Shown piece by piece: positions 5,068-50,899 of a stretch of 64,000 nucleotides of DNA (positions within the stretch are counted from its first letter, which is position 1; every line of letters begins with the position of its first letter). Below the pieces are notes generated by a model. It was not told the DNA's origin and ran no database searches. It saw only the letters and a list, made by a program, of their open reading frames with translations. A program made the position numbers and the translations under genes. This DNA comes from Halomonas sp. M20 (GTDB lineage Bacteria > Pseudomonadota > Gammaproteobacteria > Pseudomonadales > Halomonadaceae), in contig NZ_JACNMQ010000001.1 in the NCBI RefSeq assembly GCF_020622265.1, forward strand, positions 124,001 to 188,000, given 5' to 3'.

Positions 5068-6906
5068 ATGCTAAAGGAGATGAAATATGCCATTGCGACC
5101 ATAGGGCTCTTGGCCGCTACCACGCTTCAAGCCAACGACAATCAGCTTGAATTACAGAACAACCCCGAACTATGGGCCACCCAGCTCGGCAACTATCAAG
5201 GCAATCGCTACAGCAAGCTCGACCAGATCAACCGCGACACTATCAACGGCCTGCGCCCTATGTGGCAATTCTCGACCGGGGTGTTGCGCGGTCATGAGGG
5301 CGGCCCACTGTATGTCGGCGACGGTCGTCTGTATATCCACACTCCCTTCCCCAATAAGGTATTTGCCCTCGACCTGGAAGATCAGGGTCGTATCGTCTGG
5401 ACCTATGAGCCGGATCAAGATCCTCGGGTCATTCCTGTCATGTGCTGCGATACCGTCAATCGCGGTCTCGCCTATGCGGATGGCCGCCTGTTTTTGGGCC
5501 AGGCCAACAATACCCTGATCGCGCTGGATTCGGAGTCCGGGGAACTACTGTGGGAAGCCACCAACGGTGATCACACCAAGGGTGAGAGCAATACCATGTC
5601 GCCACTCGTGGTGCATGACAAGGTCGTGATGGGCATCAGCGGGGGCGAGTTCGGGGTGCGCGGTCATATGACCGCCTACAACGTCGAGTCGGGAGAAAGA
5701 GTCTGGCGCGGGTACTCCAACGGCCCCGATAGCGATGTGCTACTCGATCCGCAAAAAACCCTGATGATGGGCAAGCCCATCGGTGAGGCGGATCTGGGCG
5801 TGAGCACCTGGCCGGAAGGCGAATGGAAGCGCGGCGGCGGCGCCCCCTGGGGCTGGGTCACCTACGACCCTGAACTCGATCTGATCTACTACGGTTCGGG
5901 TAATCCAGGTAGCTGGAATCCGGAGCAACGCACCGTGAACGGCGAACCCGCGGACAATAAGTGGGCCATCACGGTATTTGCCCGGGACCCTAATACCGGC
6001 GAGGTCAAGTGGGTCTATCAAAAGGTGCCCTTCGATGAATGGGACTACGACGGCGTCAACGAGAATCAGCTGATCGATGTGGAGATCGACGGTGAGCAGC
6101 GCAAGGGCCTGGCGATCATCGATCGTACCGGCTTTGGCTTTCTGCTCGATCGGGAGTCCGGCGAACTTCTTGTAGCCGAGAAATTCGCTCCGGAAACCAA
6201 CTGGGCGAGCCATTACGACATGGACACCGGCCGGCCGGTGGTCAACGAGGAGTTCAGCACCTTCCGTCAAGGGGTCAATGTCAACACCACGGATATCTGC
6301 CCTACTGCCATGGGCGCCAAGAACATGCAGCCCAGCGCCTACTCCCCGGAAACTGGCCTGCTCTATGCCGGCATCAACCGTATCTGCATGAACTACGAGC
6401 CTTACGAAACCGAGTATGTCGCGGGTCAGCCCTATGTCGGCGCTACCCTCACTATGATGCCCGCCCCGGTGCAGGAGGGGGACGGCAACAAAGGGCGCAT
6501 GGGCAGCTTCATCGCCTGGGACCCGGTCAAGGGTGAAGTCGTTTGGGAAATCGATGAGCGCTTCGCGGTCTGGAGCGGTGCCTTGGCCACGGCAGGTGGA
6601 CTTGCGTTCTACGGCACCCTGGAAGGCCATGTGAAGGCGGTGAACATCGATACCGGTGAGGAGCTATGGAGCTTCAAGACCCCGTCGGGAATCATCGGTA
6701 ACATCAATACCTTCCAACATCAAGGCAAGCAGTATCTAGGCGTGCTGTCTGGGGTCGGTGGCTGGGCGGGCATAGGTCTGGCAGCGGGTCTCGAAGATCC
6801 TGAAGAGGGATTAGGGGCGGTCAGCGCCTTTGCCTCTCTCAAGGATTACACCGAGCTTGGTGGCGTACTGACGGTGTTCGCCTTGTCGGATGCGCCAGAC
6901 GCCTGA
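5068..6906 (+). CDS. xoxF: XoxF-type PQQ-dependent alcohol dehydrogenase, predicted lanthanide-dependent
   Basis: Periplasmic quinoprotein that oxidises methanol or other primary alcohols and passes electrons to a cytochrome c. The 612 residues start with a signal peptide (cleavage near LQAND, residue 22). The eight-bladed propeller shows the vicinal disulfide Cys126-Cys127 in VMCCD, the metal ligands Glu194 (GGEFGVRG) and Asn279 (GSGNPGSW), and catalytic Asp326 in WDYDGVNE. Asp328, two residues later, is the extra metal ligand that marks lanthanide enzymes; calcium MxaF enzymes have Ala there. Overall wording (RYSKLDQIN, STGVLRGHEG, CDTVNRGLAYADG) is closer to XoxF than to ExaA. First gene of an operon with its cytochrome and XoxJ. 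Substrate range cannot be read from sequence. Confidence 0.9.
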   Translation: MLKEMKYAIATIGLLAATTLQANDNQLELQNNPELWATQLGNYQGNRYSKLDQINRDTINGLRPMWQFSTGVLRGHEGGPLYVGDGRLYIHTPFPNKVFALDLEDQGRIVWTYEPDQDPRVIPVMCCDTVNRGLAYADGRLFLGQANNTLIALDSESGELLWEATNGDHTKGESNTMSPLVVHDKVVMGISGGEFGVRGHMTAYNVESGERVWRGYSNGPDSDVLLDPQKTLMMGKPIGEADLGVSTWPEGEWKRGGGAPWGWVTYDPELDLIYYGSGNPGSWNPEQRTVNGEPADNKWAITVFARDPNTGEVKWVYQKVPFDEWDYDGVNENQLIDVEIDGEQRKGLAIIDRTGFGFLLDRESGELLVAEKFAPETNWASHYDMDTGRPVVNEEFSTFRQGVNVNTTDICPTAMGAKNMQPSAYSPETGLLYAGINRICMNYEPYETEYVAGQPYVGATLTMMPAPVQEGDGNKGRMGSFIAWDPVKGEVVWEIDERFAVWSGALATAGGLAFYGTLEGHVKAVNIDTGEELWSFKTPSGIIGNINTFQHQGKQYLGVLSGVGGWAGIGLAAGLEDPEEGLGAVSAFASLKDYTELGGVLTVFALSDAPDA

Positions 6907-48477: not shown

Positions 48478-48690
48478 TCATTCCCCCTCGTCACGTTCCC
48501 AGTCCATGGGGCGCCGCACGGCTTCCACAATGAAGATCGCGCCTTCCAGGGCATATTCGATCTTGCCATCCAGCCCCCAGGCAATCGTGGTGACCCGGTC
48601 ATTCTGCGACATGACCGGGGTGCCGCCGGTATTCATCAATAGGAAATAGCCGGTGCCGTAGATGTTTTTGACCATGCCTTTCTCGAAAGA
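48478..48690 (-). pseudogene. Remnant of glycerol kinase (glpK) central segment
   Basis: The minus-strand frame reads [20 protein letters not shown], then [20 protein letters not shown] and ends WERDEGE. This is the internal GlpK region that in intact enzymes reads roughly CFEPGMxKNTYGTGCFxLMNTG and TTIAWGxxGKVxYALEGSxF, about residues 250-310 of 500. Neither the N-terminal nor the C-terminal parts are present on either side, and the frame stops soon after. The conserved Tyr-Gly-Thr-Gly is intact but Cys is replaced by Tyr. A decayed fragment, not a gene. Confidence 0.85.
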
Positions 48691-48751: not shown

Positions 48752-48782
48752 AAAACGCCCCATCCTTGAGTGGATGGAGCGC
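48752..48782 (-). terminator. Terminator of 37-residue protein gene A
   Basis: On the minus strand, CGCTCCATCC pairs with GGATGGGGCG (one wobble) across ACTCAA, followed by TTTTG. It starts 7 bases after the stop of the small gene at 48790-48903. Confidence 0.8.
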
Positions 48783-48789
48783 TTGAATG

Positions 48790-48903
48790 TCAGCGTGACG
48801 ACTCTTTGTAATGGCCGGGAACCGTGACCCGCTCGCCGTTGGGGAGCTGGCGAACGTAGGTTGGAACATAGACCCGCGTGATGATGCTCTTGCGTTCAGT
48901 CAT
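48790..48903 (-). CDS. 37-residue protein A of a paralogous pair
   Basis: A 38-codon frame (with stop) preceded by AGGAGGT 8 bases upstream and followed by an intrinsic terminator, so it is very probably translated. It reads MTERKSIITRVYVPTYVRQL and ends VTVPGHYKESSR. It aligns without gaps, end to end, with protein B at 49092-49205: shared are Val11, Val13-Pro14, Arg18, Gly23, Val26, Val28-Pro29, His31-Tyr32. The pattern VxVPxxxRxxxxGxxVxVPxHY recalls the short HTRKTxSGKxVxVxxH motifs seen in assorted tiny bacterial proteins. Function unknown; basic, no membrane segment. Confidence 0.75.
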   Translation of the reverse strand: MTERKSIITRVYVPTYVRQLPNGERVTVPGHYKESSR

Positions 48904-49053
48904 GAAAGATACCTCCTACACGTTACGGTAACACCTTCCCCGCTTCATCATCATGACTGCGGTCAATGTCACTGGTACATGGCTTGGAGCGCGATCGTTG
49001 CCGAAGGGCGTCACTGCAATGGCAGCTTTCTATTGTGTAGGTGAGGATAGTAC

Positions 49054-49085
49054 AAAAAGGGCTACCCCTTATGGGGAGCCCTTTT
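49054..49085 (-). terminator. Terminator of 37-residue protein gene B
   Basis: On the minus strand AAAAGGGCTCCCC pairs with GGGGTAGCCCTTTTT (one mismatch region) across ATAA, ending in five T. It begins 7 bases after the stop of the small gene at 49092-49205, the same distance as for gene A. Confidence 0.82.
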
Positions 49086-49091
49086 GCACGG

Positions 49092-49205
49092 TCAGTTCGG
49101 TGTTGAGCGGTAATGCTCAGGCACGCGAACAGGCTTACCTGAAGATGTCTTCCTGGTATGTGCAGGAACATGCACCTTCTTATTGCCGGATCCAGTCTTA
49201 GCCAT
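49092..49205 (-). CDS. 37-residue protein B of a paralogous pair
   Basis: Same length as protein A: 37 residues. AAGGAG stands 8 bases before the ATG. It reads MAKTGSGNKKVHVPAHTRKT and ends VRVPEHYRSTPN. Basic (Lys/Arg/His-rich), no hydrophobic stretch. The gene-plus-terminator unit is 302 bases from the A unit with the same layout. No function assigned. Its upstream 205 bases also contain a candidate small RNA on the other strand. Confidence 0.75.
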   Translation of the reverse strand: MAKTGSGNKKVHVPAHTRKTSSGKPVRVPEHYRSTPN

Positions 49206-49272
49206 GGCTAATCTCCTTCAATAGTGAGGCGACCAACTTGACCTAAGCTAGACTGAGGAAGACAATGCTTCC

Positions 49273-49364
49273 GCTTTTGGTAGCTTAGCCTACCCGAACG
49301 GCTAGGGGTGGTCGCACACCCTTGCAGTCGAGACGCCCGAAGTTACCGCTTCGGGCGTTTTTTT
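49273..49364 (+). ncRNA. Candidate structured small RNA
   Basis: A plus-strand transcript is suggested by a promoter-like pair TTGACC (49238) and GACAAT (49261) with a 17-base spacer, and by an intrinsic terminator: ACGCCCGAAG/CTTCGGGCGT (49333-49358) followed by seven T. Between them are two more perfect five-pair stems: TAGCC/GGCTA (49286-49304) and GGGTG/CACCC (49306-49321). No open frame with a ribosome site lies inside. The terminator points away from nrdB, which is on the other strand, so it does not serve nrdB. I do not match it to a named RNA. Confidence 0.45.
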
Positions 49365-49410: not shown

Positions 49411-50664
49411 TCAATCCCAGCTCAGCGCACCGCCAACCTGATATTCGGTGACCCGGGTCTCGAAGAAGTTCTTCTCCTTTCTAAGGTCGATGATCTCGCT
49501 CATCCAGGGGAAGGGGTTGCTGGCACCCGGAAACTGCTCTTTCAAACCGATCTGCGCCAGGCGGCGGTTGCAGATGAAGTGCAGGTACTCTTCCATGATC
49601 GCGGCGTTCATGCCGAGCACGCCGCGAGGCATGGTGTCTCGGGCATATTCGATCTCGAGCTGGGTACCTTCGAGGATCATTTGGGTGACTTCGTCCTGGA
49701 ATTCCGGTGTCCACAGGTGCGGGTTCTCGACCTTGATCTGGTTGATCATGTCGATGCCGAAGTTCAGGTGCATGGACTCGTCGCGCAGGATGTACTGGAA
49801 CTGCTCAGCGACGCCGGTCATCTTATTACGCCGACCCATGGAGAGGATCTGGCTGAAGCCGCAGTAGAAGAAAATGCCTTCGGTGACCACGTAGAAACCG
49901 ATCAGGTTGCGCAGGAACTCCTGGTCGGTTTCCGGAGTGCCGGTCTGGAAATTCGGGCGTCCCAGGGCCTGGGTGTGCTTCAGGCTCCAGGCGGACTTGC
50001 GCGCCACGGAATCGACTTCGCGGTACATGTTGAAGACTTCGCCTTCGTCCATGGCCAGGGATTCGATGCAGTATTGGTAGGCGTGAGTATGAATCGCCTC
50101 CTCGAAGGCCTGGCGCAGCAGGTACTGGCGGCATTCGGGGTTGGTGATGTTCTTGTACACCGCCAGCACCAGGTTGTTGGCTACCAGCGAGTCGGCAGTG
50201 GAGAAGTAGCCTAGCGAACGCATCACGATCAACCGTTCGTCCTCGGTCAAGCCATCCTGGCTCTTCCATAGGGCGATGTCGGCGTTCATGTTCACTTCCT
50301 GGGGCATCCAGTGATTGGCACTGCCGTCGAGATACTTCTGCCAGGCCCAGTCGTATTTGAGGGGCACCAGCTGATTGACGTCGGCCCGGGCATTGATCAT
50401 GCGCTTGTCGTCGACCTGCACGCGACCGGCGCCCATTTCGAGCTCTTCCAGACCCGCAGCGATATCGAGTTCGTCCAGGGCCTGTTCGGCTCGGGCAAGG
50501 CGGTCGGTGTCGGCGACCTTGTAGGCGCCGGCACTTTCTTTGACTTCCGTCTCCGCCTTGGCTTCGGTTTTGGGTGCAGCCGTCGGCTTTGCCTGATTAA
50601 GGGCCTGGCTCGGCGCCGGTGCGGTGACGGTATCGTCGTCGTGGAATTCGTCCCAGTTCAGCAT
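49411..50664 (-). CDS. nrdB: Class Ia ribonucleotide reductase, small (radical) subunit
   Basis: Di-iron tyrosyl-radical subunit that, with NrdA, makes deoxyribonucleotides. I start it at 50664 (AGGAGAC upstream), giving 417 residues. Iron ligands and radical surroundings appear in [19 protein letters not shown] and [20 protein letters not shown]. The first about 80 residues are a low-complexity Ala/Pro/Glu-rich extension not needed for the core. C-terminus [21 protein letters not shown] carries the NrdA-binding tail. It follows nrdA with 235 bases between. Confidence 0.96.
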
Positions 50665-50899
50665 TGAAAGTCTCCTATTAAATCTCACTCAAGATGATTC
50701 GCGGCTGTTCCGGCAACGGTTCTGCGCGGAGGCGCTGTGAACCCTTCCTTGGGCGCTACTTTTGCTCTCTGACCGCCATGGATGGCGGAAATGCCGGAAT
50801 GGAATGGATCGTTTTCCGGCCATGGCAAAAGACCTCCGCTGCGAACTATCGCCGGCGCCGCTCGATTGTGGTTCATCGAGCGCAGCACGTTCCTGTCGG

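Follow-up and report, generated by a model that had tools for sequence, protein, structure and literature searches.

Two putative nucleic-acid-binding microproteins of 37 residues encoded downstream of nrdB in Halomonas sp. M20

In a 64,000-nucleotide stretch of the genome of Halomonas sp. M20 (NCBI RefSeq assembly GCF_020622265.1, contig NZ_JACNMQ010000001.1, positions 124,001 to 188,000, here called the window), two very small genes lie on the minus strand downstream of an open reading frame (49411..50688, also on the minus strand) that we take, from knowledge of such sequences, to be nrdB, encoding the 425-residue beta subunit of ribonucleotide reductase. The nearer of the two, gene B (49092..49205), encodes the 37-residue basic protein MAKTGSGNKKVHVPAHTRKTSSGKPVRVPEHYRSTPN and belongs to the phrog_21154 family, and the farther one, gene A (48790..48903), encodes the 37-residue basic protein MTERKSIITRVYVPTYVRQLPNGERVTVPGHYKESSR. 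A and B are real genes under selection, and the modelled structures suggest that their products are most likely nucleic-acid-binding microproteins. The explanation that we favour as a whole, and only tentatively, is that these are genuine 37-residue basic microproteins, that each forms a predicted hairpin built from an internal repeat through which it may bind nucleic acid, and that their position beside nrdB is inherited.

Two small genes under selection

An earlier reading of the window made without database searches (the sequence-only reading) had described A and B as proteins of equal length that align without gaps, and their coordinates, lengths, alignment and shared residues all proved correct. 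It had also credited each gene with a strong Shine-Dalgarno sequence, and both are present on the minus strand: AGGAGG for A (48912..48917), with the ATG 8 bases on, which the three closest aligned relatives share, and AAGGAG for B (49213..49218), with the ATG 7 bases on, where three relatives have GAGGA. Each gene is followed on the same strand by an intrinsic terminator, A by a 13-pair stem (48753..48784) and B by a hairpin (49055..49084) with an inner stem at 49079-49064 and a T-run. Across the window and three relatives, only 1 of 52 cells in the hairpin of A and 1 of 40 in that of B do not pair, and both hairpins show two-sided changes, in the case of A in two pairs. The sequence-only reading had placed both terminators 7 bases past the stop, which is right for B, while for A the distance from stop to stem is 5-7 bases, according to how many outer pairs are included. 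A consensus scan found no minus-strand promoter, and it is from the terminators that we infer that A and B are probably separately transcribed genes.

The substitution patterns are those of coding sequences and speak against chance open reading frames. By the Nei-Gojobori method, the ratio of nonsynonymous to synonymous substitution rates (dN/dS) for A has a median of 0.13 and lies below 1 in all 272 computable pairs from 25 of 31 loci; the other six were omitted, one because a contig end truncates it and five because their N-terminal length differs. dS was saturated in 25 of 297 pairs. For B, the median is 0.11, and all six pairs among the four B sequences lie below 1. Third codon positions vary in 30 of 33 codons of A, against 15 and 14 at the other two positions, and in 27 of 37 codons of B, against 6 and 8. 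In the 31 A loci that we read, the start and the core of the protein are constant and the ribosome site is mostly strong, while four homologues within the genus (L010-L013) extend 12-14 residues further at the C-terminus and have weaker ribosome sites. Thus, the claim that these are real micro-genes is borne out by homologues that keep the start and the core and by a dN/dS below 1 in every computable pair.

Two lineages of one family

A and B are homologous. They are identical at 12 of 35 positions in a gapless BLASTP alignment (E 4e-7), or 32% overall, and share M1, S6, V11, V13, P14, R18, G23, V26, V28, P29, H31 and Y32. Comparison of the profiles of 17 A proteins and 106 B-family proteins by hhalign gives 96.7% (E 4.5e-10), and, when the six-frame translation of the window is searched with a B-family profile built without A, gene A ranks second (E 1.8e-4). 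The sequence-only reading had called the two genes duplicated paralogues, and this stands as regards homology. A recent tandem copy is rejected, as each protein is nearer to homologues outside the pair than to the other: identity ranges from 45 to 84% between B and the 105 other B-family proteins in its alignment, and from 58 to 89% between A and 16 other A proteins. Their distributions also differ, with close copies of B in 4 and matches to A in 172 of 275 genomes of the host family. Judged by these comparisons, A is a lineage separate from B, a distant relative rather than a recent copy. Because the identity between A and B is low and B is rarer than A in the family, the two are either old paralogues, or B came in separately.

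The 172 genomes with a match to A at E <= 0.01, that of Halomonas sp. M20 included, come from 12 of the 24 genera of the family; within the genus, 9 of the 14 genomes have one. These counts are lower bounds, given that a single sequence served as the query; at least one of the 172 matches (G059, E 0.007) is probably that genome's copy of B. Wider searches, each again including the genome of origin, gave matches in 3 of 369 and 5 of 274 genomes of the class and, at E <= 1e-7, in 4 of 390 genomes of the order.

Close copies of B in the family are limited to the window and three other genomes, where they are 84, 84 and 81% identical to it; the other 57 of 61 matches to B in family genomes are 37-52% identical and, as far as compared by eye, lie at matches to A. 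Outside the family, B is found on a Marinobacter plasmid and a Synechocystis plasmid (62%) and in two Marinitoga viruses (54%). A degenerate DNA pattern for both ends of B matched 95 stretches in genome contigs and another 28 in viral contigs. In 120 of the 123, an open frame spans the pattern, and these frames give 105 distinct proteins of 39 (57 proteins), 36 (27), 37 (15) or 38 residues (6). The pattern fixes MAKT and HxRSTP(N/D), so that conservation there is imposed rather than found and copies with other ends are missed. Beyond the fixed positions, K9, V11 and V13 are invariant, and K8, G23 and V28 are at least 90% conserved in the 106-row alignment. The 105 proteins have a mean net charge (K+R-D-E) of +9.8, compared with +7 for B and +4 for A, and the 80 record titles listed include Bacillota, Bacteroidota, Patescibacteria, Cyanobacteria and Gammaproteobacteria, among others.

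Four libraries (Pfam, PHROG, NCBIfam and PADLOC) yielded a single convincing family match, that of B over its whole length (residues 1-37) to phrog_21154 (PHROGs v4, function unknown; E 1.4e-5). Among seven further proteins scanned, six of the B type match this family, and the one of the A type hits phrog_8996 alone (0.039); for A itself no hit is listed up to E 10. B differs from this family in that it is chromosomal, lies beside nrdB and has a leader of its own. Pfam gave only matches below its cut-offs (Adeno_VII, DUF6799 and DDA1), NCBIfam and PADLOC gave none, and, at the level of titles, we found no paper concerning these proteins. The E. coli control genome gave a phrog_21154 match; the E. 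coli nrdAB stretch and three prophage stretches had no B-family match in a hidden Markov model scan, which returned one A1 match (E 0.86). The expectation that ordinary gene callers would miss such genes held in part for the B family: among eight matched phage records, four have no feature annotated at the matched place, three have a hypothetical protein, which in one (Helicobacter) is another gene, on the opposite strand, and one record is unannotated. The gene table of the plasmid is incomplete and carries no weight here. Sequence comparison thus presents B as the local copy of a widespread family whose members occur in phages, on plasmids and in the chromosomes of many phyla, and A would be a diverged lineage kept in much of the host family.

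A predicted hairpin and its possible function

Both proteins contain an internal repeat. Residues 10-18 match residues 25-33 far better than at eight other offsets tried, and the score was reached by none of 2000 column shuffles for the B family (first 30 rows) and by 2 of 2000 for the A family (17 rows). The unit is VxVPxHxR-like and occurs twice per protein with a period of 15 residues. AlphaFold2 predicts the same four short strands for A and B, forming a kinked hairpin, with a mean predicted local distance difference test score (pLDDT) of 82.9 for A and 79.2 for B and values of 88-93 in two central blocks of both models; the two models are not independent, as the alignment for A included B-family rows. 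The turn residues P21, N22 and G23 are kept in at least 90% of the 17 A proteins aligned, and by eye this turn recalls the N-P-x-T-G turn of HU. Each protein is thus predicted to be one basic beta-hairpin, in which the two repeat units would form the hairpin together and the charged strands and turn would bind nucleic acid, possibly as the beta-arm of HU and IHF does, minus the helical body.

The DNA-binding arm of HU and IHF is the best structural look-alike of this hairpin, and a weak one. Among the matches listed by a second structural aligner, those with HU, IHF or other nucleoid- or histone-like titles make up 16 of the 19 for A and 11 of the 13 for B; the other five comprise the DNA-acting Tn5 transposase (twice), a relaxosome and PI-SceI, as well as ACP-DBH1, which we did not place. 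Foldseek gave no match at E <= 0.001 for the B model in the PDB or for the A model in viral proteins, and sequence searches of the PDB were empty up to E 1, while those up to E 5 and 10 brought weak, partial matches, the best (0.067) to hydroxylamine oxidoreductase. Unlike HU and IHF, A and B comprise 37 residues in all, with strands alone predicted, and there is no convincing similarity of sequence, as hhalign gives probabilities of 0.3% and 12.4% in a comparison with E. coli hupB, hupA and ihfA that left out ihfB. The HU family is also absent from the Pfam hits. Neither the sequence profile nor the helical dimer body plus arm that would mark a member of the HU/IHF family is therefore present. 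A bolder form of the proposal, which we consider doubtful, would make the A/B superfamily a stand-alone, DNA-gripping hairpin like the HU/IHF arm. It would then rank among the smallest proteins of nucleoid type, carried by phages and plasmids into many bacterial phyla and retained in Halomonadaceae chromosomes, with B under the control of its leader.

That leader bears on what is possible, if rather unlikely, as an alternative: that the basic hairpin is a ribosome- or RNA-associated microprotein that binds rRNA or mRNA, perhaps its own leader, instead of DNA. Between the start of B and a terminator-type hairpin after nrdB (49330..49361) lies a conserved leader of roughly 120 bases (49206..49329, minus strand). 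The scan lists the hairpin on the plus strand, and its inverted repeat is also conserved on the minus strand in the four B loci. Across the four genomes, no variation is seen in 71 of 116 leader columns, compared with 9 of 27 third positions in codons of conserved residues (Fisher p 0.01), and the five more distant pairs are 72-77% identical in the leader and 41-51% identical at third positions of B. Of 110 family genomes searched for the leader, two gave a match, and both of these have B. The leader has no match in Rfam at the gathering score. Its predicted fold shows two-sided changes in 4 of 38 pairs; despite these, we do not claim an RNA structure, as the fold z is weak (-1.4 to -2.2). The leader may be a promoter, an operator or an RNA element, and B is probably regulated through it.

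Small ribosomal proteins are comparable to A and B in size, charge and strong ribosome sites, and some of them regulate themselves through their own mRNA. A ribosome hibernation promoting factor also appeared twice in a PDB profile search, at the non-significant E values of 0.82 and 2.4. Against such a role, sequence searches of the PDB with limits of E 1, 5 and 10 list no ribosomal protein, the folding of the leader is not well above that of shuffles, and the patchy spread (A undetected in 103 and close B present in 4 of 275 genomes) is unlike that of a core ribosomal part.

It is less probable still that the proteins serve phages or integrative elements, for instance in lysogeny control, immunity or host take-over, and that Halomonadaceae kept chromosomal copies of them. 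The 28 viral stretches and the phage and plasmid copies would agree with this, as would an ImmA/IrrE-like peptidase gene, matched in 30 of 120 B-family loci, and a regulator of the XRE type, matched in 15. These genes lie within the fetched stretch, mostly upstream and on the same strand, and we treat them only as a lead. In addition, a conserved small gene with the motif MP(I/V)YAISYDL, presumably Cas2-like, precedes a B-type gene by 9 bases on the Marinobacter plasmid (L066, 4662-4991, plus strand) and by 49 and 9 bases in two same-genus genomes (L224, 1209-1451, and L225, 1210-1491, in reverse-complement coordinates). Against a mobile-element accessory stand the spread of A across a family, the lack of a PADLOC match in the four proteins tested, and ten neighbour genes without a mobile-element family. 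These genes, five from the nrdB-A interval of G065 and five that follow B in G094, where A has no match, encode a TonB receptor, Ada, an oxygenase, AMP-binding, short-chain dehydrogenase, Antibiotic_NAT and DUF4910 proteins, and three have no Pfam match. We had considered the nrdB-A region as a hotspot for defence or mobile elements, and this idea was dropped on the basis of these families. As a separate observation, a second small family (MYIFRA.IT.KDG...WVGPGPEP) is the next upstream open reading frame of a B-type gene at 6 of 120 loci, which are clostridial (for example, L168 and L085).

Position after nrdB

The sequence-only reading had connected A and B with ribonucleotide reductase, and as a statement about position this is correct. 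Both A and NrdB occur in 76 family genomes, and we compared positions for 74 A matches in 72 of these; G059, a probable B, is among those left out. All but one (73 of 74, in 71 genomes) share a contig with nrdB, and all 73 lie downstream on the same strand, at distances of 45 bases to 35 kb (10 within 500 bases, 24 within 1 kb and 63 within 10 kb). The order of nrdB and A is thus conserved, with other genes between them. All four close copies of B lie about 200 bases downstream of NrdB.

Such placement might suggest that A or B is a small regulator or assembly partner of the reductase, in a role like that of yeast Sml1, and a Neptuniibacter locus (L121), a single case without statistics, has, on one strand, nrdA and nrdB followed by a YfaE-like gene and a B-type gene (5384-5491, minus strand). 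YfaE is itself a small ferredoxin-like gene after nrdB in E. coli; A and B lack cysteine, have under half its length and show no relation to it. The association between A and NrdB over the 275 genomes is negative: besides the 76 with both, 96 have A only, 69 have NrdB only and 34 have neither, where NrdB relatives were counted at E <= 1e-50 and more distant reductases may exist elsewhere in those genomes. One genus (G192-G272) accounts for 75 of the 96 genomes with A only, and none of its genomes has both; within G192-G273, the two genomes that carry NrdB (G230 and G273) have no A match. Around A in four A-only loci, no relative of NrdA, NrdB or NrdJ was found in 15-19 kb, and, among the 120 pattern loci, NrdB occurs in three, two of which are the Halomonas copies already counted, and NrdJ in one more. 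Because 96 genomes have A but no detected NrdB of this type, and four such loci lack reductase relatives in the 15-19 kb read, a role in ribonucleotide reduction is unlikely, and we give very little credence to a reductase partner in particular. The placement after nrdB would instead be an inherited position and not a sign of function. Downstream of A, the window also holds a C-terminal remnant of what is presumably a glycerol kinase gene (48478-48675, minus strand), 70-75% identical to the gene after A in G009, G010 and G005; the rest of that gene is not between the remnant and A, and it was not searched for elsewhere.

That A and B are mere chance open reading frames, for which their short length alone speaks, is scarcely credible in view of the selection, conserved starts, terminators and cross-phylum homologues that contradict it. 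The preferred reading of A and B as repeat-built, putatively nucleic-acid-binding microproteins draws attention to a conserved family in phages and several phyla, with members of 36-39 residues, to which the searched libraries assign no function. Their small size and internal repeat would make them easy to synthesize, and a target could be found quickly. If the hairpin does grip DNA, it would represent a minimal form of the arm of a nucleoid protein.
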